Assembly: GCA_947501445.1 (NCBI GenBank)
Contig: CANMVS010000025.1
Coordinates: 1 to 64,000 of the forward strand
Source of the DNA: an uncultured Rhizobiaceae group bacterium
GTDB lineage: Bacteria; Pseudomonadota; Alphaproteobacteria; Rhizobiales; Rhizobiaceae
Length of the DNA stretch: 64,000 nucleotides
Direction of reading: 5' to 3'
The notes beneath the pieces are model-generated. The model had not been told where the DNA came from. It saw only the letters and a list, made by a program, of their open reading frames with translations, and did no database searches. Of the stretch, positions 5,787 to 36,218 are shown piece after piece (within the stretch, counting starts at the first letter, position 1; each line of letters begins with the position of its first letter). Both the position numbers and the translations under genes were made by a program.

Positions 5787-6842
5787 TCATGCGTGTATTC
5801 CCTTCAGCAATTCTGCCCGATCCAGATTGCGTGCCTTGTTGAACTCGCGCAGCCGCGCAAAAACATCGACACCCAATTGACGGTAAATGTCCAGCAGGTC
5901 GATAAGCACCCAATTTTCCCTGATAAGTCCCTCTTCAATACGCCAGAAATCAAGGCTGCGGATCGAAACAGCCTGACCATTCGGCGCAATACCAAGCCAG
6001 CCATCCCCGGTAAGGGTCTGTCGCATGGTGGGCCAGCCCGTCACCGCTGCATAGTTGCCGTCTCCAAAAAAATGCGCCGATATGCCCTCATTAGACTTAC
6101 CGCGGTCAGGCATTGCCCGCAGAAACGGAATCTGGTGCCAGTTCCGAAACCCTGCAATGCCACGCCCGGTCCCGATGCCTGCAGGCCCATACCAGTTCAT
6201 GCGCGGATGCCAGAAACGCTCCATCTCCATAACCTCGGGACCACCCTCGGCGGGATGTCTTTGCAGGTGTTCAATCATGTCAACGATGTGCTGACACGTG
6301 TCGGCGCTTGTGCGCGCCGGATGGGGAGATGTTTTCAACCCGTCCTGTGTCGCAGGTCCTGGAACATGCCATTCACGACCAAGGCTCGGCGACATTGGCC
6401 AGGCATTTGCCTGCATCATGAGCTCCGGAATGTCCCACAGCGCCTGCAATTCCACCATCTTGTCAGCTTCAAAGCGATAGAATTCGTGGAACCGCATATG
6501 CACCAGATGTCCGGTAGGGGCGATGTCGAGAAAGGGCGCTATGAATGTGCCAGTGTAGGTTCCACAACATCCAACCCAGTCATTGCCCTGATCATCTTTC
6601 CCGGCGATGACGATATGGTCCCGCCTTTCCATATCAGGCAACGCATCAAAAAGCGGCGCAAGGGCGGCTTCATAGTGCTGATCTGCGCCGTTGGTGTCGC
6701 CAAACGGGTGGCTGAGGCGGAAAAGCGTATCGGGTGTCGATAAGCGCTTTAGTTCCTTGCGTACCCGGGCCTCACTGAAGTCGTACATCGCCTGTCGAAG
6801 TGGTACAATCAGGGACTTCAGGTATGAGAAGCGGTCGATCAT
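5787..6842 (-). CDS. two-domain SnoaL/NTF2-like family protein
   Basis: 351 aa; [67 protein letters not shown] shared with ORFs at 8705 and 14218. Confidence 0.75.
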
Positions 6843-8167
6843 TCAGCAGCATCCCTGTGAGGGGCTGCACCGCCATATGGCACATTGATGCCGCCGTACC
6901 GCCGGACGCGGACATTACACTGCTCGGCATGGCCGACAAAACCTTCGAGCATGCACAGGCGTGATCCATATTCGCCGATCATGGTCGCTGCTGCGTCGGT
7001 TGTTACCTTCTGGTAGCTATGAGTCTTGAGAAATTTGCCGACCCACAGTCCACCGGTATAGCGGCCGGCCTTTTTTGTCGGCAGTGTATGATTGGTACCA
7101 ATAACCTTGTCGCCATTGGCTACATTGGTGCGTGCGCCCAGAAAAAGGGCACCGTAGCTGGTCATATGTTCCAAAAACCAGTCATCCCGGTCGGTCATCA
7201 CCTGTACATGTTCGCTGGCAATCTCATTGGCAACACTGAGCATCTCGTCATAGGTGTCGCACAGAATTACCTCACCATAATCCGCCCAACTGACACGCGC
7301 AGTTTCGGCTGTGGGCAGAATATTCAGCAGGCGGTCGATTTCGCTGAGTGTTCCTTCGGCCAGGTGACGCGAATTGGTCACCAGCACGGCCGGTGAATCA
7401 TATCCATGTTCCGCCTGACCCAGCAGATCAGTGGCGCAAAGCTCTGAATCCACGGTTGTGTCAGCGATCACCATTGTTTCTGTCGGACCGGCAAACAGAT
7501 CAATGCCGACCCGTCCGAAAAGTTGACGCTTGGCTTCTGCCACATAGGCATTGCCAGGACCAACCAGCATGTGAACCGGTTTGACGGTTTCAGTGCCGAT
7601 GGCCATTGCGCCGATTGCCTGAATGCCTCCCAGAATATAAATTTCGTGCGCTCCACCCAGATGCATGGCAGCAATGACCGCAGGGTTGGGTTTGCCCTTG
7701 AAGGGCGGCGTTGCCGCCACAATACGCGGCACACCGGCAACGGTGGCGGTGGCGACCGACATATGAGCGGAGGCCACCATCGGAAATTTGCCACCGGGCA
7801 CATAGCAGCCAACAGACTGAACCGGGATATTCTTGTGCCCGAGGATAACACCCGGAATTGGTTCCACCTCAATATCCAGCATGGAATCGCGTTGGGCCTG
7901 GGCGAAATTGCGCACCTGTTGCTGGGCAAATTTTATATCGGCCATTTCGCGGTCACTGACATTGGACATCAATGCGTCGATGTCTGACTGAGACAGTTTG
8001 AAAGATTGCGGTGAATAATTGTCGAATTTTTCGCTTAAATTGCGCACGGCCACATCGCCATGCAATTCGATTTCCTTCAAAATGCCTTCAACCGAGGAGC
8101 GGATTTTGGCATCATCCTCGGCCCGAACAGCCTCAGCTTTACCACGTTTCAGATACTCAATACCCAT
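6839..8167 (-). CDS. histidinol-dehydrogenase-family NAD-dependent dehydrogenase, HpsN (sulfopropanediol dehydrogenase)-like rather than biosynthetic HisD
   Basis: [81 protein letters not shown]; start MGIEYLKRG at 8167 preferred over the ORF-track start at 8248. Confidence 0.85.
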
Positions 8168-8171
8168 TTCT

Positions 8172-8708
8172 TCATCCTCGATTTGCAGGGTGGGGAGGTT
8201 GCTTCTCACCGCGATCAAAGGCTTCCCAGCCTTCGCCGTTGAAAACATCTACACCCAGTTGCGCAGCAACATGGGCAAAGTCCACGGTCACCCAGTTATC
8301 AACGATCTTGCCATCAACCACTTTCCAGAAATCCATGTAGCGGATTTCGACGCGTTTTCCGGTGGCGGCAATGCCCATGAAACTGCCTGAATGGGTGGCT
8401 TCCTGTCTGCCGAAGGCGGCGGCCCATTCGCCCATGTAGAGACGTGCTTCATCAATACAGACCTTGTCAGAAAAAGCCGCCTGAAACGGGCGCTGCCAAT
8501 TGTCCTGAAATTCCTGCAATCCGTTTTTTGTGCCGCAACCTTGATTGCCCATCCAACGGAAGTTATCGGCAAAGAACGTACCGATATCGTCGATGCGGTG
8601 ATCGTTCAGCCCATCAACCATACCCTCTATCACCGCGCGTGTGGCTGCGGTTTTTGACATATCCGTATCGCGGCTCAGCATTGCCTGCTCTGGTCTTGAT
8701 CCCTTCAT
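8172..8708 (-). CDS. single-domain SnoaL/NTF2-like ester cyclase family protein
   Basis: 178 aa; [53 protein letters not shown]. Confidence 0.75.
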
Positions 8709-9700
8709 GCCGCTTCCTCCAGATCGGCCAGAACATCAAATCCCATTTGCAAAAGAACATGTGGGATATCGACAAATACCCAGTTTTCCACGAGCAGGTC
8801 GCCCTCTCGACGCCACCAATCACACACACGCATGAAAAGCCGTTCGCCATGGGACGGTTGACCAAGAAAAGTCTTTGCCTGAACCGCATTGAGCGATGGC
8901 CATCCACCTGAGCAGATGTAGTCACCATCACCAAAACGGGTGAAGTGCTGCGTCTGGCTGCCGGGAACGGCCCCGCCGATCCATGCGCTGAACGTGTTTT
9001 CGAAAGGCACCTGAAAACCGGAAAAATTCTCCAACCCGACAAAACTGCCAAAGGCCGCCGGTCCGTACCAGTGCATGTTTTCGTGCCAATAGGGACGCCA
9101 GGCCTGGTTTTCTGTTGCAAGTCCGCGCAGCATGCTGGTGACCATCTCAAGCGACGAGGCACTGCGCTCCGCGGCATTGTGGTGCCAGATTAATCCGTCC
9201 TGAGACGCGGGACCGGGCAAATATCCCGTGTAGCCACGGTCACGGCCCGGACTATCGGTGATTGGCCATTGACCGGCAGCGATCATCAGCTCGGGAATGT
9301 CGAGAAAAATGTAGGATTCAACGACACGTCCCGCAACCATGCGATGAAATTCACCAAAACGCAGATACGCCATGGCGTTCGTCGGTTTGATCCCAAGCCA
9401 GGGATGTTTGAAATGACCGCAATAATAGCCGGTGCACGTCACCCATTCACTATCTTCATAGTCGCCACCAAATGCTATGTAGTCGCGTCGATGGAGGTTT
9501 TCAAAAGATTCAAGCAGTGGCTGGAGAAAAAGCTCTTTGTACTGTGCCGTGCCGACCATTGCGTTAAATGGGTGCACAATGTTGATCTTGGCATTGCTGT
9601 CGAAGAAACGCTCCACAGCAGCGCCGAACCCATCAGGTTGAGGATGGTGATAGGCTTCACAATAGGCCTTCAATGCGACTTTGTTGGGTAATATTGTCAT
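8705..9700 (-). CDS. two-domain SnoaL/NTF2-like family protein
   Basis: 331 aa; LRFGEFHRM, LDIPELMIAAGQWP, LPGPASQDGL, MHWYGPAAFGS, ENWVFVDIPHVLLQMGFDVL; 4-nt overlap with next gene. Confidence 0.75.
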   Translation of the reverse strand: MTILPNKVALKAYCEAYHHPQPDGFGAAVERFFDSNAKINIVHPFNAMVGTAQYKELFLQPLLESFENLHRRDYIAFGGDYEDSEWVTCTGYYCGHFKHPWLGIKPTNAMAYLRFGEFHRMVAGRVVESYIFLDIPELMIAAGQWPITDSPGRDRGYTGYLPGPASQDGLIWHHNAAERSASSLEMVTSMLRGLATENQAWRPYWHENMHWYGPAAFGSFVGLENFSGFQVPFENTFSAWIGGAVPGSQTQHFTRFGDGDYICSGGWPSLNAVQAKTFLGQPSHGERLFMRVCDWWRREGDLLVENWVFVDIPHVLLQMGFDVLADLEEAA

Positions 9701-10618: not shown

Positions 10619-11627
10619 AGTCGCGCCAGGTGCGGACCAGCACCGGTGAAAGGAGAATCGCGACGCCGATGATTGTCAGCACCGAGGTCGCTGCGGCTGA
10701 CGACAGTTGTCTCGTCTCGCCGCCAAGATCGTTGTAAATCGCCCAGGACAGGGAGGTTGCATGGGCGTTGGCTGCGAAACTGACAATCGGCTCAAAGACC
10801 CGGAAGTTGTCCATCAACTGCATCAGTGCGATGAATGTTGTGAGCGGTAGCAGGTGCGGAATGATGACATAGCGGATCTGTTCCCAGCGGTTGGCACCAT
10901 CGATGCGAGACGCCTCAAGCGTATCTTTGTTGACGGTTTGAAGCCCGGCATAATAGACAATAAAGGCAAAGGGTGCGGCGTGCCAAACGCCATAGACCAT
11001 CAGCATAATCCACATGAGTGGCGTCGAAGCCTTGACTGACAGGTCGGGATTGCCGGCCAGATATTGCAGGGCCGAGCCGATGATGCCGCGGGCGTCGACC
11101 ATCCAGAACAGGATAAGCGATCCGATCAGCGGCGTTATCATCATCGGCAATAGTGAAAAGAAAATCAGAGGCCCGCGAATTGCAGAGGCGGCACTGTTGA
11201 CGGCAACAGCAATGACGAAACCGAAAATGATGACCAGCGGTGTGACGACAAATGTGAAGGTGAGAGTGAATCCGAGTGCCTTGTAAAAAGGCAGGTTCAA
11301 CATTTGCGCGCCGAAATCGCGCCAATTGTCTGCTTTCTCCCAGGCGGAGCCGACCGCATCGACTGCAAGGTGGTTGCGGTCCCGATAGGTTGCCAAGCCT
11401 GCAAACTTTCCAAGTGGTTCAGCTTCCCTCAGTGCCGCGGTTGCCTCCTGATCGATGGCTGTTGCCTGCTTGCAACCGAAAGGACCACAATTTTCCACTG
11501 TCACGATTACCTGTTCGTGGGACACGTAGAACGACTGAACCACAACCGAGATTATCGGGAAAAAGATGAACAGCAGCATCGCAACAGAAGACGGGAGTAC
11601 GAACAAGAAAAACGCCTTGTGTTTCAT
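10605..11627 (-). CDS. carbohydrate ABC transporter permease (MalF/UgpA-like)
   Basis: EAA loop LEASRIDGANRWEQIRYVIIPHLLPL; start at MKHKAFFLFVLP (11627) preferred over the ORF-track 11759. Confidence 0.9.
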   Translation of the reverse strand: MKHKAFFLFVLPSSVAMLLFIFFPIISVVVQSFYVSHEQVIVTVENCGPFGCKQATAIDQEATAALREAEPLGKFAGLATYRDRNHLAVDAVGSAWEKADNWRDFGAQMLNLPFYKALGFTLTFTFVVTPLVIIFGFVIAVAVNSAASAIRGPLIFFSLLPMMITPLIGSLILFWMVDARGIIGSALQYLAGNPDLSVKASTPLMWIMLMVYGVWHAAPFAFIVYYAGLQTVNKDTLEASRIDGANRWEQIRYVIIPHLLPLTTFIALMQLMDNFRVFEPIVSFAANAHATSLSWAIYNDLGGETRQLSSAAATSVLTIIGVAILLSPVLVRTWRDFGRK

Positions 11628-11709
11628 TTGCGGATCCTCCGTTTTGGCGATGAGTACTGAATGCGAAGCTTCGAGGGCGACCCATGCCGCCCCCTTTATT
11701 GAAACAGAG

Positions 11710-12945
11710 TTACTTGAGGTAACCCTTTTCCCTGGCCGCAGCGGTATAGGCGGCTTCAATGTCGCTCAGCGTCTGCTCCGCGCTTTCCTTGCCCTGCATG
11801 AAATCAGCGATATTGTCGCCAAGTACGGTGTGCAGAAGTCCCTGATAAGGCAGCATTGGATAGGGCGTTGTCTGCATGTCGATCGCGCTGAAAACACCCG
11901 CATTGACTGGCGCAGGTTTGTACCCATCGATCATCCAGACCGCCTGACCCATGGTCTCGTCATTCAGGATTGCCGAACTGGTGCCATGTTTCATGGCCAG
12001 GAATGTGGCTTCGGCATCTTTGTCAGAGATGTTCTTTGCAACTGTCCAGCCGTCCCACCACAATGTCGAAGCGGGATGATTGCCACCACCGACAGTCATC
12101 GGTGCACTGACCTTGGTGTTGTTGTAAACCTCTGGCGTAGAGCCTTCCGCGTCCATCAACCGACCTGTACGTGAACCCCACATATTCATCAAAGCAACAT
12201 TGCCGGCTTCCCACTCCGCAGAGGTGGCGTTTGAATCATGGGTCAGAAAGTCGGGGTTCATATATTCCGATAGTGCCTTCATCATATTGAGCGTTGCAAC
12301 GCCCTTTTCGTTGTTGATGGCAACTTCCGCTGTGCCCGGTTTGTAGAATTCTCCACCATGGCCAAGATACATGTTGACAAATTCCTGGGCCAGGTTCCAG
12401 CCCGCTTGATAAGCGCCGCCTACCGGATTTTCGATTATGCCCTGTTCGCGTATCATTTTGGCAGCGGCCAAAAGTTCCTCATAGGTTTTTGGAGGTTCGA
12501 CACCAATTTTTTCAAGGATGTCACCGCGATACACGAGGTGTTGGGCATTGGCCATAAACGCCACAGCCATGACTTTACCGTCCACCGTGATTAACTGGTG
12601 TTTGGGAATGTCCTGACCGTGTTTGGCGACCAGGTCGTCGAGCGGACGAAGCACATCTTCATTGATCAGCGCCACAATGGATGAGTTTGCCAAAATGGCG
12701 GAAGTATATTCTGCCGGATTGCCCTGCATGCCCGCCAGATTGATCTTCTGGTGATCGGCAGTCAGGTTGGCTTCGGCTTCAATGCCTTCACAGGACGTCG
12801 CATTTTTGGCGACCGTCTGAATGGCGGGAAATTCGTTACCAATTATATTGAGACGCCCCGAGTCAATCGTGCATGCCGCGAAGGCTGCTGATGTGGAAAG
12901 CGCCACCGTTGCGGCGGTAATTATCGTCTTGAGAAACATATTCAA
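11710..12945 (-). CDS. ABC transporter extracellular solute-binding protein (sugar type)
   Basis: signal peptide MNMFLKTIITAATVALSTSAAFA followed by family 1 solute-binding-like sequence. Confidence 0.9.
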   Translation of the reverse strand: MNMFLKTIITAATVALSTSAAFAACTIDSGRLNIIGNEFPAIQTVAKNATSCEGIEAEANLTADHQKINLAGMQGNPAEYTSAILANSSIVALINEDVLRPLDDLVAKHGQDIPKHQLITVDGKVMAVAFMANAQHLVYRGDILEKIGVEPPKTYEELLAAAKMIREQGIIENPVGGAYQAGWNLAQEFVNMYLGHGGEFYKPGTAEVAINNEKGVATLNMMKALSEYMNPDFLTHDSNATSAEWEAGNVALMNMWGSRTGRLMDAEGSTPEVYNNTKVSAPMTVGGGNHPASTLWWDGWTVAKNISDKDAEATFLAMKHGTSSAILNDETMGQAVWMIDGYKPAPVNAGVFSAIDMQTTPYPMLPYQGLLHTVLGDNIADFMQGKESAEQTLSDIEAAYTAAAREKGYLK

Positions 12946-23374: not shown

Positions 23375-24061
23375 ATGCCGAAGACTGCGGAACTGGCTGA
23401 CATACCTTTAGGTGCGCATGTCACTTCCGCCGGACATGCCTATGAAATTCTCCGGGACGGCTTGATTTGGGGGCGGTGGAAGCCGGGTGAAAAGCTCAAA
23501 CCCCAACACCTGAAGACGGAGATTTCAACGACCTCCAGCGCTTTGCGTGAGGCATTGATCCGCCTGGCGGGTGAAGGTTTTGTCACCTTTGAGGAGCAGC
23601 GCGGGTTCAGTACCATCAGGCCAACACCATCCTCCTTTCTTGAATTGCGCCATTTGCGGGTATTGCTTGAGCTGGATGCAGCACGTCTTTCAGTGGAACG
23701 GGGTAATCTGGAATGGGAAACCAATCTGAGCGCCGCCCATCACCGCCTGATTTTTTTGGAAGACAAGATGCGCAGCTCAGATGACCTGCGCAGTTATATT
23801 AAATGGTGGTCGCGCTATGATGGGCAGTTTCATGAAGCACTGATTGCGGCCTGCGGTTCGGAACTGCTCAAACAGCAATTTCGTTCTATTTATGATAAAT
23901 ACCGTCTGCATGCCGTAACCGAATTGCGGACATTCGGATTTCGCGGTGAAACAACGACGCGCGAACACAATGACATTGTGACGGCCGCACTTGATCGTGA
24001 CGCAGATGCCTGCACGGCGGCCATAGAACGTCACGTCACAGTATACCGTGATGGCGACTGA
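23375..24061 (+). CDS. GntR-family regulator with FCD domain (FadR subfamily)
   Basis: winged-helix LKTEISTTSSALREALIRLAGEGFVTFEEQRGFSTI; FCD-like C-terminal domain. Confidence 0.92.
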   Translation: MPKTAELADIPLGAHVTSAGHAYEILRDGLIWGRWKPGEKLKPQHLKTEISTTSSALREALIRLAGEGFVTFEEQRGFSTIRPTPSSFLELRHLRVLLELDAARLSVERGNLEWETNLSAAHHRLIFLEDKMRSSDDLRSYIKWWSRYDGQFHEALIAACGSELLKQQFRSIYDKYRLHAVTELRTFGFRGETTTREHNDIVTAALDRDADACTAAIERHVTVYRDGD

Positions 24062-24393: not shown

Positions 24394-25254
24394 ATGCAGT
24401 ATCACACGCCCGGCAGTTTTGATGATGCCGTTGAGCTTGCAGCCAATGCCGAAGGGATTACCCGCTTTCTGGCTGGCGGAACTGATGTTCTGGTGCAGTT
24501 ACGCGCTGATATCGTGACACCGGACATCCTGATTGACGTCAAGAAAATTGCGGGCGTGAGAGATATTACACGCGAAGATGGTGGCTGGCGCATTGGCGTT
24601 GCCGTGTCTGGCGCTGAAATGTCGGAGCACCCGTTGTTGCAAAAGGAATGGCCAGGCGTGGTCGAAGCCATGGATTTGATCGGCTCGACACAGGTGCAGG
24701 GCCGGGCGACACTGGTGGGCAATCTGTGCAATGGTTCACCCGCAGCAGACAGCGTCCCGGCAATGATTGCAGCCGGTGCCTGGGTGTCGGTTATCGGGCC
24801 GGATGGCACGCGCAAAGTGCCGGTTGAAGACATTCCAACAGGCCCTGGCCAAACAAGCCTTGCTAAGGGCGAATTGATCAACGCCGTGCACCTGCCGGAA
24901 CGTGGTGCTAATGGCGGTGACGCCTATTTGCGTTTTATCCCCCGCACTGAAATGGATATTGCCGTGGTCGGATGTGCGGTAAATCTGCGTCTTGACGGTG
25001 ACAAAATCAGCGAAGCGCGCGTTGTGCTTGGTGCTGTTGCCCCGACCGTTTTGTTGGTTGAAGACGCGGCAGCGGCAATTATCGGGTCAACCCTGGATGA
25101 AGCGGCGCTGGAGATATTGGCAGCAGCGGCCAGTGCAGCCTGCAATCCGATTGACGATAAACGCGGCACCATTAAATTTCGTACCCACGTTGCCGGAGTA
25201 CTGGCAAAACGTGCGGCAAAAATTGCCTATGAGCGTGCAGGAGCCTCCGTATGA
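24394..25254 (+). CDS. molybdenum hydroxylase FAD-binding subunit (CoxM-like)
   Basis: FLAGGTDVLVQLRADIVTPDILIDVKKI; RATLVGNLCNGSPAADSVP. Confidence 0.95.
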   Translation: MQYHTPGSFDDAVELAANAEGITRFLAGGTDVLVQLRADIVTPDILIDVKKIAGVRDITREDGGWRIGVAVSGAEMSEHPLLQKEWPGVVEAMDLIGSTQVQGRATLVGNLCNGSPAADSVPAMIAAGAWVSVIGPDGTRKVPVEDIPTGPGQTSLAKGELINAVHLPERGANGGDAYLRFIPRTEMDIAVVGCAVNLRLDGDKISEARVVLGAVAPTVLLVEDAAAAIIGSTLDEAALEILAAAASAACNPIDDKRGTIKFRTHVAGVLAKRAAKIAYERAGASV

Positions 25255-25730
25255 GCATGATACATGTAACCACAAATGTTAACGGCGATGATGTCGAGTT
25301 TTTGTGCGATCCGCGTGAAACCCTGTTGGATGTTCTGCGGGATAAATTGGCGCTGACCGGCACCAAGGAGGGGTGTGGGACCGGCGATTGCGGTGCCTGT
25401 TCAGTGACCGTTGATGATCGGCTTGTCTGTTCCTGCCTGATGTTGGGCGCTGAGGCCGAAGGTAAATCGGTTACCACCGTGGAGGGTATCGCTGATGGTG
25501 AGAACCTGCATCCGCTGCAGGAAAAATTCATCGAATATGCCGCGCTCCAATGTGGCATTTGCACCCCCGGAATTCTGGTTGCCACCAAGGCGTTGCTGGA
25601 AAAAAATCCTGACCCGACCGAAACCCAGGTTCGTTACTGGCTGGCCGGAAACCTGTGCCGCTGTACCGGTTATGACAAAATCATTCGCGCTGTGATGGAT
25701 ACGGCTGCAGATATGAGAAAGGCTTCCTGA
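25251..25730 (+). CDS. molybdenum hydroxylase [2Fe-2S] subunit (CoxS-like)
   Basis: GTKEGCGTGDCGACSV; QCGICTPGILVATKALL; LAGNLCRCTGYDKI. Confidence 0.97.
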   Translation: MSMIHVTTNVNGDDVEFLCDPRETLLDVLRDKLALTGTKEGCGTGDCGACSVTVDDRLVCSCLMLGAEAEGKSVTTVEGIADGENLHPLQEKFIEYAALQCGICTPGILVATKALLEKNPDPTETQVRYWLAGNLCRCTGYDKIIRAVMDTAADMRKAS

Positions 25731-27979
25731 TGGCTATGGATCACGACAAGACAAATGGTTTCAAGGTTGTCGGTACCCGTCCGAACAGGCCCGACGGGGT
25801 AGACAAGGTTACCGGCCGGGCAAAGTTCGGTGCCGATGCCTATGCCCCCGGCATGTTGCATGCGGCAATCGTGCGGTCACCCCATGCCCATGCCCGCATT
25901 TTGAGCATTGATACATCAAAGGCAGAAGCGCTGAGCAGCGTCAAAGCTGTCGTAACACGGGCGGATTTCGCCGAGGGCCTGACTGGTGAAAACTGGAATA
26001 TTCTCGAAAACGTCATGGCAGGCGACACTGCTCTCTATGATGGCCACGCTGTTGCTGCCGTAGCAGCAACCACGCCGCTGGCGGCGCGCGATGCAGCAAA
26101 ACTGATCAAGGTTGAATATGAGCCCATGCCCCACGTCACTGATGTGGACAAGGCGATGGCTGCCGATGCGCCGATTATTCGCGCGGGTGCTGCAGACAGT
26201 TCGGTTCCGTCCGGTCTGCACGCCAATGTTGTTCGCTACCATGAAAGTGGCCACGGCGATGTCGCGACAGGTTTTGACGAAGCGGATGTGGTGATTGAAG
26301 ACAGCTTCAAGACCGAGGCAACCCATCAGGGGTATATCGAACCGCATGCCTGTCTGGCCCAGCTTGGGCCGGATGGCAAAGGTGAAGTCTGGTGCTGCAC
26401 ACAGGGCCATTTCAACGTGCAGAAAGTTTGCGCTGCACTGCTGGGCACGGATTCCAGCCAGTTGCGTGTAACCGCATCTGAAATTGGTGGCGGCTTCGGC
26501 GGCAAGACTGTGGTCTTCATAGAGCCCGTCGCACTGGCACTTTCCCGCAAGGCCAGCCGGTCAGTCAAACTGGTGATGAGCCGGTCTGAGGTATTCCGTG
26601 CAACCGGCCCGACAGCCTCAACGTCCATGGACATCAAAATCGGCATGACCAGGGAAGGCAGGATCACAGCGGCAGAGGGCATATTCCGATTGCAGGGTGG
26701 GGCTTTTCCCGGTGCACCCATGGAATTTACCGCCATGTGTGCCTTTGCACCCTATGATTTGAATAATGTTCGCCAGATTGGCTATGACGTCCTGTCCAAT
26801 CGTCCGAAACAGGCAGCCTATCGGGCACCCGGCTCACCGATGGCAGCTTTCGCGGTTGAATCGGTCGTTGACGAATTGTGCAAGAAGCTTGGTCTGGATC
26901 CGCTTGAAGTGCGCCTGATGAACGCATCAAAAGAGGGAACCAAGGCCTCCTATGGGCCGCGTTTTGATCGCATCGGTCTGGTGGAGACACTGGAAGCTGC
27001 AAGAGATCATCCCCACTATTCGGCACCTTTAGCCGAAGGGCAGGGGCGTGGTGTTTCGTGCGGGTTCTGGTTTAATCATGGTGGCGAAACGTCGGTTTCT
27101 CTTGCACTTTCTGAAGATGGGACTGCGGCTTTGTCTGTCGGAACACCGGACATTGGCGGTTCGCGGGCCGCATTGGGACAGATGGTTGCCGAGGAACTGG
27201 GCATACCTTACGAGAAGATCCGTACCACGATCGCCGACACGGCCACCCTTGGCTACAACGAGATCAGCCACGGATCACGTGTGACCTATGCCAGTGGTCT
27301 GGCTGCCATCAAGGCATCACGTGATGCTGTGCAAAAACTTTGCGCCCGCGCCGCAGCCAAATGGGGCATTGATGAAGAAGCCGTGGTTTGGGAAGACGGT
27401 TATGCGAAACCATCCGGCCCCAACGCTGGCAGCTTTGAACCGATTTCGCTGGCTGAGATTGCCAGTACCATGGGGCAGACCGGCGGTCCGATTGCCGGCC
27501 ATTTTGAAGCAACACCTGAAGGGGCAGGCGTGAGCTTTGCCACCCATATTGTTGACGCCGAAGTCGATGACGAAACCGGTCAGACAAAGGTCGTGCGCTA
27601 CACGGTTGTTCAGGATGCCGGTAAGGCTATTCATCCCACCTATGTTGAGGGGCAGTTTCAGGGCGGTGCTGCGCAGGGCATCGGTTGGGCTTTGAACGAG
27701 GAATATATCTACGGTGAAGATGGCCGACTGCAAAATTCCATTTTCCTGGATTATCGCATTCCGGTGGCTTCGGATTTGCCAATGATCGATACGGTTATTG
27801 TCGAGGTTCCAAACCCCGGTCATCCCTACGGTGTGCGCGGTGTGGGTGAAACATCCATCTGTCCGCCGCTGGCGGCCATCGCCAATGCCGTGTCGAATGC
27901 GGCGGGTGTGCGTTTGAAACACCTGCCCATGTCGCCACCACGCATTCGCGAAGCGCTGGATCAGCAGGCAAATGGTTGA
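25730..27979 (+). CDS. molybdopterin-binding subunit of xanthine dehydrogenase-family oxidoreductase (CoxL-like, not form I CODH)
   Basis: GGGFGGKTVVFIEPVALALSRK, AYRAPGSPMAAFAVES, GVGETSICPPLAAIANAV; lacks AYRCSFR. Confidence 0.95.
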   Translation: MAMDHDKTNGFKVVGTRPNRPDGVDKVTGRAKFGADAYAPGMLHAAIVRSPHAHARILSIDTSKAEALSSVKAVVTRADFAEGLTGENWNILENVMAGDTALYDGHAVAAVAATTPLAARDAAKLIKVEYEPMPHVTDVDKAMAADAPIIRAGAADSSVPSGLHANVVRYHESGHGDVATGFDEADVVIEDSFKTEATHQGYIEPHACLAQLGPDGKGEVWCCTQGHFNVQKVCAALLGTDSSQLRVTASEIGGGFGGKTVVFIEPVALALSRKASRSVKLVMSRSEVFRATGPTASTSMDIKIGMTREGRITAAEGIFRLQGGAFPGAPMEFTAMCAFAPYDLNNVRQIGYDVLSNRPKQAAYRAPGSPMAAFAVESVVDELCKKLGLDPLEVRLMNASKEGTKASYGPRFDRIGLVETLEAARDHPHYSAPLAEGQGRGVSCGFWFNHGGETSVSLALSEDGTAALSVGTPDIGGSRAALGQMVAEELGIPYEKIRTTIADTATLGYNEISHGSRVTYASGLAAIKASRDAVQKLCARAAAKWGIDEEAVVWEDGYAKPSGPNAGSFEPISLAEIASTMGQTGGPIAGHFEATPEGAGVSFATHIVDAEVDDETGQTKVVRYTVVQDAGKAIHPTYVEGQFQGGAAQGIGWALNEEYIYGEDGRLQNSIFLDYRIPVASDLPMIDTVIVEVPNPGHPYGVRGVGETSICPPLAAIANAVSNAAGVRLKHLPMSPPRIREALDQQANG

Positions 27980-29191: not shown

Positions 29192-30922
29192 ATGCGTGTT
29201 TACGAAGCAGTCGTTGCAGCCCTTGAGTCAATTGGCGTTGACGCTGCCTTTGGCGGTGCCGGGGAAAATGCCGCCGGAATGATGTTGGCGCTTGATAAAT
29301 CAGATCAGATCCGACCAATCATCGCAAAAAACGAACAGGGTGCAGCCTTCATGGCCTGCGGTTATGCCATGTTCACCGACAAGCTGGGCGTATGTTTTGC
29401 AACAGCAGGTCCTGGTGCCTTCAATCTGATTTCAGGACTGTGTGTTGCACTGACGGATTCTTATCCCGTGCTTGCGGTGACCGGTTATTCAACGGTTGCC
29501 TGGGATGGCAGGGGAACGCTGAATGAAACATCGGGGCTGTTTCGCACACCAAATTCAGCCATGATGTTTGATGCGGTTACCAAGAAAGATCCGGAAACCG
29601 GAGAGCCGGCCAATTACCTGGTTACCAGCGCTGATGATCTCATGCCGACTTTGCAAAAGGCAATCGAGGTGGCCTATTCCGGGCGACCTGGCCCTGTTCA
29701 TGTTGCTGTGGCCGAGGATATCACCGATCCCGCCATCAAGGTGAGCAATTTCAGTCCACTGCGCATTCCATTTGACCCGGTCAAACCCGATCAGGCCCGT
29801 GTGGACGGGGCTGCGACACTTCTTGCCGCCACAATCAACGAAGGAAAGCGGGTTGTGCTTCTTTCCGGATTTGGCGCCATATTGAGCGGCGCCAATGAGG
29901 CGGTGCTGGCATTCGTCGAGCGGTTCCAAATCCCTGTGGTGACCACCATGGATGGCAAGGGGATTGTCGACGAGGAGCACGATCTGGCCATCGGTCTTTA
30001 TTGTGACAGCGGTCACAAGGCCGCCTGGGAGATATTTGACAGTGCAGATGTTATCATTGCACTGGGCAATTCCTTCGCCCAACACGCGACATTTGATTTC
30101 AGCGATAAGCTGTTTGACGAACGGGCGCTGGTTCACATCAACATCGACGCCGCCGAGATTGACAAGGTCTATCGGGCTGATCATGCCATCATCTCTGATG
30201 CAAAACTTGCGATTGCGGCCTTGCACGAGGCTATGGATGATCGTGTTGGTCCGGTGGCTGCTCAGGATTATCGCCCGAAGGACTATGACGAGCGTTTTAT
30301 CATTTCGCCCACACCCAAACTTCATCCCGGCAGAATGGTTCAGGCCATTTCGCGCATGCTGCCGGATCGCGGGGTTGTTCTGGCGGATGCGGGTGCCCAT
30401 GCCGCCTGGTGCGGATACTACCTTGAACTGAACGAAGGGCAGAATTTTCGCAAACCCGGCACCTATGGCCCGATGGGCATAGCGGTCAATGGCGCTTTGG
30501 GCGTGAAATATGCCGATATGGATCGCACGGTTGTTGCTGCCGTTGGGGACGGTTCGTATCTGATGTCGGGCTTTGAGCTGATGACTGCAGTTCAATATGA
30601 CATCCCGGTCATCTGGGTGATTTTCAACGACCGGGAATTCAAGCTCATCAAGCTCTATCAGATCGCTGCGTTCAGGCGCTGTGGTCTGGTTGAATTCGAC
30701 AATCCGGACTATGCCGCCTATGCGCGCGCCTGCGGTGCACAAGGTTACACGGTTGACCGACTTAACGAATTCGAAGACGTCTTCGCCACCGCGCTTGCAT
30801 CACGCAAACCGACACTCATCGATGCAAGAATTACCCGCCTGGCGCTGCCAAACTACAGTCCCGATCCCGATGGGATCCTCTCGGCGATATTTGATCGTGT
30901 GAGAGAACGGTTCGGGGCCTGA
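29192..30922 (+). CDS. thiamine pyrophosphate-dependent enzyme (acetolactate synthase large-subunit-like)
   Basis: 576 aa; KNEQGAAFMACGYAM, ATAGPGAFNLISGL, AVGDGSYLMSGFELMTAVQYDIPVIWVIFND TPP motif. Confidence 0.9.
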   Translation: MRVYEAVVAALESIGVDAAFGGAGENAAGMMLALDKSDQIRPIIAKNEQGAAFMACGYAMFTDKLGVCFATAGPGAFNLISGLCVALTDSYPVLAVTGYSTVAWDGRGTLNETSGLFRTPNSAMMFDAVTKKDPETGEPANYLVTSADDLMPTLQKAIEVAYSGRPGPVHVAVAEDITDPAIKVSNFSPLRIPFDPVKPDQARVDGAATLLAATINEGKRVVLLSGFGAILSGANEAVLAFVERFQIPVVTTMDGKGIVDEEHDLAIGLYCDSGHKAAWEIFDSADVIIALGNSFAQHATFDFSDKLFDERALVHINIDAAEIDKVYRADHAIISDAKLAIAALHEAMDDRVGPVAAQDYRPKDYDERFIISPTPKLHPGRMVQAISRMLPDRGVVLADAGAHAAWCGYYLELNEGQNFRKPGTYGPMGIAVNGALGVKYADMDRTVVAAVGDGSYLMSGFELMTAVQYDIPVIWVIFNDREFKLIKLYQIAAFRRCGLVEFDNPDYAAYARACGAQGYTVDRLNEFEDVFATALASRKPTLIDARITRLALPNYSPDPDGILSAIFDRVRERFGA

Positions 30923-31004: not shown

Positions 31005-33806
31005 ATGTCGAGCTGGAAGGAAGAATACAAAGGGGGGTCTGCCGAGGCAGAGCGCGTGGAATTTGAACAATTGACGCAACTGATGCTCGACGCGCAATTG
31101 AAGTCCCGCAAGGCGGCAGGTGCCAGGCATGTCGATCGGGCGTTTCATGCAAAATCCATCGCCGCGTGCGGTGGTGCGCATTTTCGATTTGCCGATGATC
31201 TGCCGGATGACCTGCAAATCGGATTTGCGCAACCGGGACAGCAGTATGAAGCCCAAGTTCGCATTTCCAATGCGGCTTCCTCAGCCAAGCCAGATGACGA
31301 AAAGGATTTGCGCGGTCTGGCGGTGCGCATTCGGGTTTCTCACGACGAGCACCACGACCTGCTGGCAACAAATTTCCCGATACCCCACGCACGTGATGCC
31401 CGCCAATTTGTACTCTTTGCCCACGCGGTCGCCGGAGGGCGTTTGTCACGCATCAAGGGGATATTGAAGCTCTTTTTTCAACTGGGGCCGGCGGAAACCG
31501 TTCGCATGTTGAAAAACATCCGATCTGCCTTGCACACATCCGAAAGTCTGGCGATGGAATCCTACTGGAGCCGCGGAGCCATTCGCTGGGGTGATGAGGC
31601 TGTACGCTATATTTTCAAACCGGTTGCGGATGTTGCGCCGCTGAAAGACAGTTTTTCCGGAGCAGGGCATCTTGGTGCCGAATTCATGACGCGCCAGATG
31701 CGCGGCGATATTGAATTTGATCTTTATGTCCAGCGTTTCATCAATGAAAAATCAACGCCGATCGAAGACGCCGCTGTTGAATGGAGCGAGAGCGTATCCG
31801 CACCTGTTCACGTGGCGACACTTGTTCTGCCGCAGCGGGATTTGAGCGCTGTGGATGCGCGCGCCGAGCAGCGCGTGATCAACGACATGGGGTTCAATCC
31901 ATGGAATACGACGGAAGAGTTCCGGCCTCTGGGCCATCTCAATCGGGCAAGAAAGGCTGCTTATGATGGCTCGTTGGCCCATCGTCAGACGCGCCGGTTC
32001 AAGGAGCCGAGACCACCCATTCAAAATCGTATTTTCGGCACGGCAGCACGCTCCATTTTGCGCACCATCAATCGCTACCGCCCCTGGCATCGCCTTCCAT
32101 TGCTTGTCAGTCTCCTGAATCTCGATGCATTACGTCATGACCTGCGGGTTCATAATCTGCTTGACACCGAACCGCGCGAGGCACCACCGCAGGCCCGAAA
32201 TATTCCGGCGCAAACAACTGATGATGCGCGCATGTATCGCTCATATGAAGGCAGCTCAAATGATTTGAGTGCACCTGACATGGGAGCTGTCGGCCAGACG
32301 TTCGGGCGCAATATGCCAGCGCAGGAGCAATCCGTTGATGATCCCAATCCGGTAACGGTCTGCCGGGAGCTGATGGATAGAAAGACATTCATTCCGGCGA
32401 CAATCGTCAATGTTCTTGCTGCAGGCTGGATCCAGTTCCAGGTTCATGACTGGGTGGCCCACGCGCGTCACAAGCTCGGCGAAAAGGATTTGATTGTCCC
32501 GATACCGGACAAATATCCGCCCTTTGCCAATACGCCAGAAGGTGAAGCCGAACGGATGATGCGTATTGCCGGCAACATTCCTCATCCAAACGCGACAGGT
32601 GACGGCATCTTGTTTGCCAATGCGTCGTCACATTGGTGGGATGGATCGCAAGTCTACGGATATGATGCCAAGAACGCCAGGAAGCTGCGCGAGGGCGCCA
32701 AATTGCGCCTTGATGAAAATGGCTATCTGCCGGAAAATATCCATGGTTTCGAAATGACCGGCTTTAATGAAAGCTGGTGGATGGGCCTGAGTGTTCTGCA
32801 CACGTTGTTTGCCCGTGAACACAATGTTCTGTGTGATGAGTTGCAAAAGGCCTATCCGACCTGGGATGACGAGCGGACATACCAGACGGCACGGTTGATC
32901 GTATCGGCGCTGATCGCAAAAATTCATACCGTCGAATGGACACCGGCAATTTTGGCAACCGAAGCGCTGGACATTGGCATGAAGACCAACTGGTATGGGC
33001 CGCCCTCCGGTGACTGGTTAACGAAGCTCGGCATATGGCTGACCGATACCCATGCGCTCAAAGGCATCCCGCAAACGTTGCCTGACCACCACAGTGCACC
33101 CTATTCGCTGACAGAGGAATTTGCCACGGTTTACCGCATGCATCCGCTTATTCCGGACGACTACATTTTCTATAATTTCGAAACAGGCAAAGAACGCAGC
33201 CGCAAAAGCTTTACTGAAATTCAGGGCGCCATGTCGGACGATGAGTTCAGAAAACTTGGCATGCGTGATGCGCTTTATTCGTTCGGCATTGCGCATCCCG
33301 GTGCCATCACACTGCACAATTTCCCCCGCACGCTGCAGAATTTCCACCGTGAAGGCGAAACGATTGATCTTTCCGTCGTTGATATTGTGCGCACCCGCGC
33401 CCGTCATGTGCCGCGCTACAATGAGTTTCGTCAAAAGCTGCATATGCCTGCCGTGCGTGATTTTGATGAGATGACCGCCAGTCAGGAAACAAACCGCAAG
33501 CTGCAGGAAATCTATGGCAAGGTCGATAATGTTGATACCGTCGTCGGCTTGCTGGGTGAGAACCCGCCGGATGGATTTGGTTTCAGCGATACGGCCTTTC
33601 GTATCTTTATCCTCATGGCTTCGCGCCGGCTGCAAAGCGACCGCTTTTTGACAGTTGATTTCCGTCCGGAAGTCTATTCACCGCTCGGTATGGACTGGAT
33701 CGAAAACAACACGATGACGAGTGTCATATTGCGTCACTGTCCGGAACTGGCGTCGGTCATTCCCAAAGGTGGCAATGCTTTTGCGCCGTGGCGCCCGATC
33801 TATTGA
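31005..33806 (+). CDS. fusion hemoprotein: catalase-like N-terminal domain + animal-heme-peroxidase/alpha-dioxygenase-like C-terminal domain
   Basis: N-term ATNFPIPHARDARQFVLFAHAVAGG and FRPLGHLNRARKAAYDGS (catalase-like); C-term IQFQVHDWVAHARHK, SSHWWDGSQVYGYD, REHNVLCDELQKAYP, EFATVYRMHPLIPDDYIF, PGAITLHNFPRTLQN (alpha-DOX-like). Confidence 0.8.
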   Translation: MSSWKEEYKGGSAEAERVEFEQLTQLMLDAQLKSRKAAGARHVDRAFHAKSIAACGGAHFRFADDLPDDLQIGFAQPGQQYEAQVRISNAASSAKPDDEKDLRGLAVRIRVSHDEHHDLLATNFPIPHARDARQFVLFAHAVAGGRLSRIKGILKLFFQLGPAETVRMLKNIRSALHTSESLAMESYWSRGAIRWGDEAVRYIFKPVADVAPLKDSFSGAGHLGAEFMTRQMRGDIEFDLYVQRFINEKSTPIEDAAVEWSESVSAPVHVATLVLPQRDLSAVDARAEQRVINDMGFNPWNTTEEFRPLGHLNRARKAAYDGSLAHRQTRRFKEPRPPIQNRIFGTAARSILRTINRYRPWHRLPLLVSLLNLDALRHDLRVHNLLDTEPREAPPQARNIPAQTTDDARMYRSYEGSSNDLSAPDMGAVGQTFGRNMPAQEQSVDDPNPVTVCRELMDRKTFIPATIVNVLAAGWIQFQVHDWVAHARHKLGEKDLIVPIPDKYPPFANTPEGEAERMMRIAGNIPHPNATGDGILFANASSHWWDGSQVYGYDAKNARKLREGAKLRLDENGYLPENIHGFEMTGFNESWWMGLSVLHTLFAREHNVLCDELQKAYPTWDDERTYQTARLIVSALIAKIHTVEWTPAILATEALDIGMKTNWYGPPSGDWLTKLGIWLTDTHALKGIPQTLPDHHSAPYSLTEEFATVYRMHPLIPDDYIFYNFETGKERSRKSFTEIQGAMSDDEFRKLGMRDALYSFGIAHPGAITLHNFPRTLQNFHREGETIDLSVVDIVRTRARHVPRYNEFRQKLHMPAVRDFDEMTASQETNRKLQEIYGKVDNVDTVVGLLGENPPDGFGFSDTAFRIFILMASRRLQSDRFLTVDFRPEVYSPLGMDWIENNTMTSVILRHCPELASVIPKGGNAFAPWRPIY

Positions 33807-33846: not shown

Positions 33847-35217
33847 ATGGTTGATCATCCCGGTTTAGACGCATTTTTGAAACAGCCCCTTTCGCGCACG
33901 CTGTGGGGCAGACGAACCCGGCGCGTCAGCCGCGGCAGCGATGTTGAAGCGGGTTCGATGACCTATAAATCGTCCAATGAGCGCGCACCGCTGTGCGCGC
34001 TTGAGGAGGCTATTCTGATTGCGGCAACGGGTGCTTCGGGCCTCACCATGCCCGATCGACCCTTTGCCGATCCAAAAACCGGTGATCCGATCATGGCAAA
34101 GCCGAACCTGATGATGCAGGGCCGCACCGCCGGTAGTCCGGATAATGCGCAGGGCACGCACTTTTTCATGATCAACGACAGCGGCACCTATTTTCTGCGC
34201 CGCATTGAGCCTTTGGCGGCAGGGGTGGATGGCTGGACACCTGAAATTCTGATCGAGCGTGCCGAACGCACAAAGGTCAAGGTTCTGGACCGCCGCATAG
34301 ATGTGCCCGGAGATGATCGCGATTTTCCTGCCTATCTGGATTCAAACCGGTTTCTGTCCAACCTGCCGGGGACGACCATATTCTTTCCGGTCGTTGATCT
34401 GTCCCATCAATATATCAACGGTTTGATGTATCTTTTGACCCAGCCTGAAAAAGCGCGACCCGCCTTCGTCGATGACCGTAATTTTTACCAGCCTGCGGGC
34501 ATCAAGAAATGGATCAAGAGCGGTTTTTTGAACGAAGACATTAAAGTACCGCTCGGACTGATCAAGCAAATGCGCACGCAGATTGAAGCCGACCTGCTGG
34601 TGCAGAACCTGTTCCTTGTCACAGAAGCATTGGGCCTTGGTGGATGGATACACGGATCCATATCGCCACCGGTGCTGATGGGAGACCCCAAGTTTCGGGA
34701 TCGCTATGGCAATATGCTGGATTTTGATTACCAGTCACCACCCTGGAAACTGATGGATATTCTGCGTTGGCATACGCTGCCGATCAAAAAGATGGAGCAC
34801 ATTCGAACTCATGCAACGAGCCTGCGGCACAAGGGCGAATATCTGATCAAGGCGAAATGCCCACCCAATTATGATTCAATGTCTGAAGCTGTCGATACCG
34901 TTATGGCCGGCAAATTCGGACCGGAAGGCATCTATAAGGATACAGATCTTTTCAAGCACATTTACAAGGAAGATTATGGTGATCGCTACCTGGCTGAGGC
35001 GGCAGAATATGGTGGCGAGGTTGTGGAATGTGTTCGGGCAATATGTGATTATATCTACGATACCCATGGTCGGTTTCCGGCCCATTGCGATGCTATCGAG
35101 GCACCCGGAATCTGGCTGCAGACGCATCACATAGAAGAAGAATATTATGATCGCTTCTTCAAGAACGGCAAGACAGATGTCCATGCGGCCCATGACAGCC
35201 GCTGGCATGCGTCTTGA
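33847..35217 (+). CDS. conserved protein with nitroreductase-like features
   Basis: 456 aa from 33847; LCALEEAILIAATGASGL and LLVQNLFLVTEALGLGGWIHGS resemble nitroreductase-fold segments; ORF-track start at 33721 overlaps the upstream gene. Confidence 0.5.
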   Translation: MVDHPGLDAFLKQPLSRTLWGRRTRRVSRGSDVEAGSMTYKSSNERAPLCALEEAILIAATGASGLTMPDRPFADPKTGDPIMAKPNLMMQGRTAGSPDNAQGTHFFMINDSGTYFLRRIEPLAAGVDGWTPEILIERAERTKVKVLDRRIDVPGDDRDFPAYLDSNRFLSNLPGTTIFFPVVDLSHQYINGLMYLLTQPEKARPAFVDDRNFYQPAGIKKWIKSGFLNEDIKVPLGLIKQMRTQIEADLLVQNLFLVTEALGLGGWIHGSISPPVLMGDPKFRDRYGNMLDFDYQSPPWKLMDILRWHTLPIKKMEHIRTHATSLRHKGEYLIKAKCPPNYDSMSEAVDTVMAGKFGPEGIYKDTDLFKHIYKEDYGDRYLAEAAEYGGEVVECVRAICDYIYDTHGRFPAHCDAIEAPGIWLQTHHIEEEYYDRFFKNGKTDVHAAHDSRWHAS

Positions 35218-35255: not shown

Positions 35256-35288
35256 CATTCTTCAATCCGCATAAAGGATTGAAGAATG
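35256..35288 (+). promoter_or_regulatory. perfect hairpin enclosing the start codon of the MarR-GNAT gene
   Basis: CATTCTTCAATCC-GCATAAA-GGATTGAAGAATG; 3' arm contains the ATG at 35286. Confidence 0.6.
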
Positions 35289-36218
35289 AGTGAAGCCGAG
35301 ACAATTGATCAACAGGCATTGGCAGTACGGGCCTTCAACCGTTTTTACACACGTCAGATCGGCCTGCTTAATGAAGGGCTGTTGAAAAGCCGGTTCTCGT
35401 TGACCGAAGTGCGGGTTCTTTACGAACTGGCGCATCGCGATGATCTGAGTGCCAGCGATATCATCAGTGATCTCGGATTGGACGCCGGATATCTCAGCCG
35501 TCTGCTGAAAAAATTTCAGTCCAGCGGCCTGATTGTTCGCTCACCCTCACCGCGCGATGCAAGGCAGTACATTCTGAATCTCACGCAAAAGGGCAGGGAC
35601 GTCTTCGCGCCTCTCAATCAGACGTCGGCAGAGGAGATCACTGCAATGCTGTGTGACCTGCGTCCATCAGACCGGGTAAAAATGTTGCAGGCTATGGAGA
35701 CGATACAGGAGCTTTTGTCACCGGAACCAGCCGATAAAGGAAGCTTTCACTTACGCCCATTGCAAAGTGGAGATATTGGTTGGATAGCCCATCGTCAGGG
35801 CATTTTATACGCCCGTGAATATGGATTTGATGCCACATTCGAGGCGCTGGTGGCGCAAATCGCAGCAGATTTCGTCGATAATCATAATCCGAGCGCCGAA
35901 CAATGCTGGATTGCCGAGCGCAATGGGGCGATCCTCGGCAGCGTATTTGTCGTGCGCCAATCGGACACGGTTGCCAAATTGCGGCTGCTGTATGTTGAGC
36001 CACTGGCCCGGGGGCTGGGGCTTGGTGGTGCACTTGTTGATCAATGTATCGAATATGCCCGTGCGCGGGGCTATTCTACATTGACATTATGGACAAACGA
36101 CAATCTGGATGCAGCCATCCACCTTTATCAGACCAGGGGTTTTATCCTTGATCGCGAGGAAAAGCACAATTCATTCGGCTGCGATCTTGTGGGCCAGCAC
36201 TGGAATTTGCAGCTTTGA
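35286..36218 (+). CDS. MarR-type HTH fused to GNAT N-acetyltransferase
   Basis: N-term winged helix LGLDAGYLSRLLKKFQSSGLIVRSPSPRDARQ; C-term LYVEPLARGLGLGGALVDQCIEYARARGY. Confidence 0.92.
   Translation: MSEAETIDQQALAVRAFNRFYTRQIGLLNEGLLKSRFSLTEVRVLYELAHRDDLSASDIISDLGLDAGYLSRLLKKFQSSGLIVRSPSPRDARQYILNLTQKGRDVFAPLNQTSAEEITAMLCDLRPSDRVKMLQAMETIQELLSPEPADKGSFHLRPLQSGDIGWIAHRQGILYAREYGFDATFEALVAQIAADFVDNHNPSAEQCWIAERNGAILGSVFVVRQSDTVAKLRLLYVEPLARGLGLGGALVDQCIEYARARGYSTLTLWTNDNLDAAIHLYQTRGFILDREEKHNSFGCDLVGQHWNLQL

Follow-up and report, generated by a model that had tools for sequence, protein, structure and literature searches.

The open reading frame at 31005-33806 of the window, the 64,000-nucleotide stretch of DNA analyzed here, encodes a real and conserved bacterial enzyme, a single chain that carries a small catalase-like heme domain and a fatty-acid alpha-dioxygenase (alpha-DOX) of the plant type. 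Its probable role is to form a fatty-acid 2-hydroperoxide and then act on it. Our preferred reading, to which we would give a probability of roughly 55% on the residues and gene context described below, is that it is a two-heme enzyme with two functions in bacterial fatty-acid alpha-oxidation, whose catalase half would divert the 2-hydroperoxide formed by the other half. The features on which the analysis bears are these.

29192-30922, + strand: thiamine diphosphate (ThDP) enzyme of the acetolactate-synthase superfamily (PF02776/PF00205/PF02775), 82 nt upstream of the fusion.
31005-33806, + strand: catalase-related/fatty-acid alpha-dioxygenase fusion of 933 aa (single open reading frame, GGAGG, PF00199 and PF03098, conserved elsewhere).
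31005-31994, + strand: catalase-related half, approximately residues 1-330, with distal His48, Asn123 and the proximal ligand motif Arg316-x-x-x-Tyr320 (alignments, 3e4w, Foldseek).
32058-33803, + strand: alpha-dioxygenase half, approximately residues 352-933, with distal His481, His641, Thr646, catalytic Tyr710, proximal His713 and Arg875 (4kvj/4hhr, residue mapping).
33847-35217, + strand: conserved 456-aa partner protein outside the Pfam and NCBIfam families, 40 nt past the fusion stop, with its own start and ribosome-binding site.

The frame opens at an ATG at 31005, with a GGAGG motif immediately 5' of it, and runs through 933 codons to the stop at 33806. The initial annotation had placed a single reading frame of about 934 aa there, and every peptide that it quoted is present in the translation. 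Pfam locates PF00199 (Catalase) at residues 41-143 (37.8 bits; cut-off 25) and PF03098 (An_peroxidase) at residues 411-917 (330.9 bits, 1.8e-98). The second match covers profile positions 1-524 of 530, and the core of the heme peroxidase-cyclooxygenase superfamily is thus present. Both domain names first proposed, a catalase-like and an alpha-dioxygenase-like half, proved correct by these matches and by those to the plant alpha-DOX and to 3e4w.

A scan of 85,462 species genomes for the window protein found 26 loci, a census that is a lower bound because it relied on exact peptide patterns and a single query. The hosts are Ruegeria, Salipiger, Alloyangia, a Bauldia MAG, an alphaproteobacterial MAG and many Streptomyces, and plasmid records add fusions from Phyllobacterium, several Rhizobium and Nonomuraea. 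Together with four plasmid loci that we examined, this makes 30 related loci, the window's own locus being counted apart. The fusion is full length in 29 of the 30, spread over alphaproteobacteria and actinomycetes: of the 26 genome loci, 25 have the two-domain frame uninterrupted, as do all four plasmid loci, the sole exception (L040) carrying a frameshift within the DOX half. The 29 intact loci rule out a frameshift or assembly artefact that joins two reading frames, the danger that the initial annotation had named, and the phyletic survey that it proposed finds the fusion, in the 26 genome loci and the plasmid loci, natural and conserved. In a tree, all 18 fused DOX halves used fall on one side of a single branch with 100/100 support; the standalone DOXs and the plant sequence lie outside this branch, with long branches that leave the exact sister group unsure. 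The fusion looks rare: a sample of 387 genomes from the class has it in the window's own genome and in no other. Some bacterial alpha-DOX-like genes stand alone, with no annotated catalase gene beside them, and alpha-dioxygenation can therefore do without the second domain.

The closest solved structures to the C-terminal part are the plant alpha-dioxygenases 4kvj (333 bits, 2.7e-98) and 4hhr (325 bits), with a match that spans nearly the whole length of the plant protein; the standalone Calothrix sp. PCC 6303 DOX shares 45% identity with this half. Thirteen substrate-channel positions of the rice enzyme, as given in PMC8720084, were mapped through a phmmer alignment, on which M325, A331 and F549 were placed by eye. 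Eleven of the 13 are identical in the fusion (L53, R57, H311, W315, T316, the catalytic Tyr 379, F549, F552, I553, A556 and R559), with M325 and A331 replaced by L655 and T661. Rice His311, Thr316 and Arg559, the carboxylate/alpha-carbon residues (PMC8720084), are kept as His641, Thr646 and Arg875, and Tyr710 (catalytic), His713 (proximal) and His481 (distal) align with their rice counterparts. All six residues are invariant among 22 aligned fusions. The AlphaFold model has a pLDDT below 50 over most of this half, so its assignment rests on sequence. By its active-site residues and homology, the C-terminal half is a fatty-acid alpha-dioxygenase. A 10S-DOX identity was considered and rejected: the fusion has GFGFSDTAFRIFILMASRRLQSDRF in place of ARxIGxDAFxQA, the terminal motif of the Nostoc linoleate 10S-DOX (PMC13049297).

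The N-terminal half is modeled well (pLDDT about 80). A profile of the catalase halves, searched against solved structures, gives 3e4w, a 33-kDa catalase-related protein, as its best match (108.7 bits). Foldseek ranks the same structure first (probability 1.00, TMt 0.73); catalases of full length come lower in its list, as does 1u5u, the coral allene oxide synthase (TMt 0.61). The half has the catalase fold. The AlphaFold and Foldseek check suggested earlier for each half thus succeeded for the N-terminal one, while the model of the DOX half was mostly too poor for it. The distal His48 and the RxxxY pair Arg316 and Tyr320 are invariant across the alphaproteobacterial and Streptomyces fusions among the 22 aligned. 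Heme ligands are therefore kept in both halves, and their loss from one of them, which the initial annotation had taken as fatal to its proposal, is not seen in any of the 22. At the distal position 123, the same alignment has Asn in the window, the alphaproteobacteria and Nonomuraea and Ser in every Streptomyces row except L031, and lineages may therefore differ in their catalase-like site.

Conservation differs between the halves, as identity to the window fusion across loci is 46-65% for the catalase half and 58-74% for the DOX half. This faster divergence would fit a degenerate domain kept for folding or oligomerisation, in a protein that works as an ordinary alpha-DOX. The invariance of His48, Arg316 and Tyr320 argues against such a purely structural role, which we consider very improbable.

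The residue that adjoins the distal histidine bears on the type of chemistry. The window has Phe at position 47, and the 22-fusion alignment as a whole has Phe or Ile there. The coral allene oxide synthase has Thr beside its distal His, and this feature of the catalase-related allene oxide synthases is absent from the aligned fusions. The analogy to allene oxide formation drawn in the initial annotation does not carry over: a 2-hydroperoxy acid decarboxylates to the Cn-1 aldehyde (PMC9305512), and coral-type chemistry is not expected from it.

Alpha-dioxygenases generate a 2(R)-hydroperoxide by way of a tyrosyl radical, and spontaneous loss of CO2 gives the Cn-1 aldehyde (PMC9305512). In the mechanism that we favor, His641 and Arg875 of the alpha-DOX half would bind a free fatty acid, the Tyr710 radical would abstract the C-alpha hydrogen, and addition of O2 would yield the 2-hydroperoxy acid. 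The catalase-related half, with its Tyr320-ligated heme and distal His48, would then receive the 2-hydroperoxide and decide its fate. As the aldehyde forms without a further enzyme and the second heme site is invariant, we infer a fate other than simple decarboxylation. The diversion would most likely be a peroxidase-type reduction to the 2-hydroxy acid or a dehydration to the 2-oxo acid; a tightly controlled cleavage of the 2-hydroperoxide is a further possible outcome. The 456-aa protein, possibly a flavin protein, might act as redox partner or in the following step, and the ThDP enzyme, where present, might act later on the aldehyde or the 2-oxo acid. The analysis itself shows which domains are present, their active-site residues, the conservation and the gene context; heme occupancy, the transfer of the hydroperoxide in cis, the product and all roles of the neighbors are what we infer here. 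If this mechanism is true, the fusion would be a self-contained bacterial alpha-oxidation enzyme that passes its 2-hydroperoxide straight to a second heme.

Related catalase-like domains are found with another partner as well. A single open frame combines a catalase-like with a LodA-type (lysine epsilon-oxidase family) domain in each of two further genomes from the class of the window (L016, 1-2481, - strand; L017, 1294-3804, + strand), so the catalase-like domain is not dedicated to fatty-acid hydroperoxides. A known member of the LodA family makes H2O2. Such pairings lend some weight to a view of the catalase half as a peroxide-tone module that scavenges or meters H2O2 and stray hydroperoxides, in which case the product would simply be the Cn-1 aldehyde; the module would shield the alpha-DOX from self-inactivation and control its H2O2-dependent activation. 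That H2O2 activates alpha-DOX, and that its product decarboxylates without a further enzyme (PMC9305512), is consistent with this role. The LodA fusions, however, have Phe at the position of the distal His48 in the alignment and may not be a catalytic parallel. Moreover, at about 330 aa the domain of the fusion falls far short of a full catalase in length, and its nearest solved relative is a small catalase-related protein, not a true catalase. We judge a role in peroxide control rather unlikely on this balance, and keep diversion of the 2-hydroperoxide as the preferred reading.

Two neighbors of the fusion escaped the initial annotation: a homologue of the 456-aa gene lies downstream of the fusion in 29 of the 30 loci, and the ThDP gene belongs to the cassette in 11. 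The 456-aa protein of the window has no match in Pfam or NCBIfam, its AlphaFold model has a pLDDT of 42.5, and a PDB profile search with the family gave no match. Against the nitroreductase family PF00881, the window protein has no match and no family member exceeds the 23.5-bit cut-off; sub-threshold matches occur in 13 of 21 members (best member E = 0.0038), and those inspected singly score 12.9-16.6 bits over about 25 residues. This weak signal is a hint that the protein is perhaps a flavin protein, and we make no assignment. Among 299 genomes sampled across the phylum, the 456-aa profile matched only the window's genome. The neighbor represents an uncharacterised protein family that accompanies the fusion across two phyla. 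The fusion and the 456-aa gene of the R. phaseoli-type plasmid are separated by a gene for a RoxA-like cytochrome c and by a small reading frame, an arrangement seen on the Rhizobium sp. N731 plasmid at L046:10822-13081, where the small frame has no Pfam family. The ThDP and 456-aa genes of the Phyllobacterium plasmid (L044:6192-7900 and 10910-12263) are both frame-split, by decay or sequencing error.

The ThDP enzyme is absent from 19 of the 30 loci, and in S. melanogenes its gene lies downstream of the 456-aa gene. The catalytic Glu (E48), G452-D453-G454 and N479 are invariant in the 11 orthologues, as befits the superfamily. BbmA and CsmA are the closest solved ThDP enzymes, BbmA (8xod, 246 bits) being the nearest. 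No close orthologue was found elsewhere in eight Streptomyces genomes that have none at the locus, one of which has a distant 32% match. The neighbor counts and these absences make the fusion and the 456-aa gene the core of the cassette, with the ThDP enzyme as an accessory.

This distribution bears on a reading in which the catalase half resembles a hydroperoxide lyase and speeds the decarboxylative cleavage to the Cn-1 aldehyde, from which the ThDP enzyme, with pyruvate, would form a long-chain acyloin. The precedent is a catalase-related protein of Nostoc, a specific hydroperoxide lyase for 10S-HPODE (PMC13049297), and the placement of the ThDP enzyme in the acetolactate-synthase superfamily suits the second step. 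But the cleavage is already spontaneous, and most Streptomyces cassettes are without a ThDP enzyme, so a lyase role that feeds it cannot be general. We think this proposal unlikely. An equally doubtful extension of the preferred reading would make the fusion the core of an undescribed bacterial lipid-signal or specialised-lipid pathway: the catalase-like half would convert the alpha-DOX 2-hydroperoxide to a 2-oxo acid or a 2-hydroxy acid, the next step would fall to the 456-aa protein as a new flavoprotein family, and carboligation by the ThDP enzyme, where present, would give a long-chain acyloin.

Several other genes lie around the cassette or its relatives. A patatin-like phospholipase gene is located upstream of the cassette in Phyllobacterium (L044:3361-5880) and R. 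jaguaris (L047:2986-5649), and could provide free fatty acid; a patatin-like phospholipase is also found on a plasmid of Calothrix sp. PCC 6303 (L048:12162-13740), close to a standalone alpha-DOX-like gene. On a plasmid of Streptomyces sp. NBC_00069 (L049:1-7800), a standalone DOX lies near an annotated benzoylformate decarboxylase (a ThDP enzyme), an FAD-linked oxidase, a cytochrome P450 and an alpha/beta hydrolase. Upstream of the cassette in the window, three reading frames at 24394-27979 resemble a molybdenum hydroxylase set, the large subunit being confirmed by Pfam, and are preceded by a GntR regulator (23375-24061). They were rejected as members of the system, as the large subunit is matched in none of the related fusion loci. 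Just past the 456-aa gene, a single reading frame (35286-36218) combines a MarR-type regulator with a GNAT acetyltransferase domain, and farther away (5787-9700) a histidinol-dehydrogenase family gene stands between two reading frames that each match SnoaL-like domains.

In the openly licensed literature searched we found no description of an alpha-DOX/catalase fusion, which is weak evidence of absence. The survey in PMC8720084 cut N-terminal extensions before tree-building and leaves catalase unmentioned; such fusions may therefore have been in that survey, undiscussed. The initial annotation had inferred a domain pairing different from that of the known fusions. What looks new here is the alpha-DOX as partner, its covalent linkage and the conserved 456-aa neighbor; the arrangement in general is already known from Nostoc, where a catalase-related lyase, the product of a separate gene, cleaves the hydroperoxide made by a linoleate 10S-DOX (PMC13049297).

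Comparison with known systems places the fusion among several related solutions. The plant and cyanobacterial alpha-DOX (4kvj and 4hhr, rice/Arabidopsis; CalDOX and LepDOX, PMC8720084) share its sequence, the catalytic Tyr, both His and the equivalents of His311, Thr316 and Arg559, but have no known catalase-like domain attached and no described 456-aa or ThDP partner. The Nostoc punctiforme pair of 10S-DOX and catalase-related 10S-hydroperoxide lyase (Brash et al. 2014, per PMC13049297) likewise couples a heme dioxygenase of the COX superfamily to a catalase-related protein; there the genes are separate and the dioxygenase is a 10S-DOX, whereas the window has a fused alpha-DOX that lacks the 10S terminal motif. 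The term "fusion" is used for a cyanobacterial enzyme in PMC11719350, where PMC13049297 has "a separate gene". An unfused, Nostoc-like arrangement is also seen on the Paracoccus yeei plasmid pTT13-1 (L051:4106-8579), with RoxA-like cytochrome c, catalase-family and DOX genes in tandem; this DOX has the 10S-DOX-like terminal motif RMVALDAFSQA, in an alphaproteobacterium.

The closest solved relative of the N-terminal half, the 33-kDa catalase-related protein of M. avium subsp. paratuberculosis (3e4w/3e4y), is a stand-alone protein, unlike the fused domain here. It has peroxidase activity with organic hydroperoxides. The catalase-related allene oxide synthase/lipoxygenase fusions (coral 1u5u/3dy5; Anabaena, Acaryochloris) have the same order, an N-terminal catalase-fold domain that processes the hydroperoxide and a C-terminal fatty-acid dioxygenase. 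In them, polyunsaturated fatty acids are oxygenated by a non-heme lipoxygenase, in contrast to the heme alpha-DOX of the window, whose 2-hydroperoxide cannot yield an allene oxide as theirs does. In the fungal DOX-CYP fusions (linoleate diol synthases, 9-DOX-AOS), too, the hydroperoxide of a heme dioxygenase is transformed by another heme enzyme fused to it, but they are eukaryotic, of other regiochemistry, and their second domain is a C-terminal cytochrome P450. With the fusion described here, the catalase-related/dioxygenase theme, in which lipoxygenase and 10S-DOX are the earlier partners, gains a third kind of dioxygenase.
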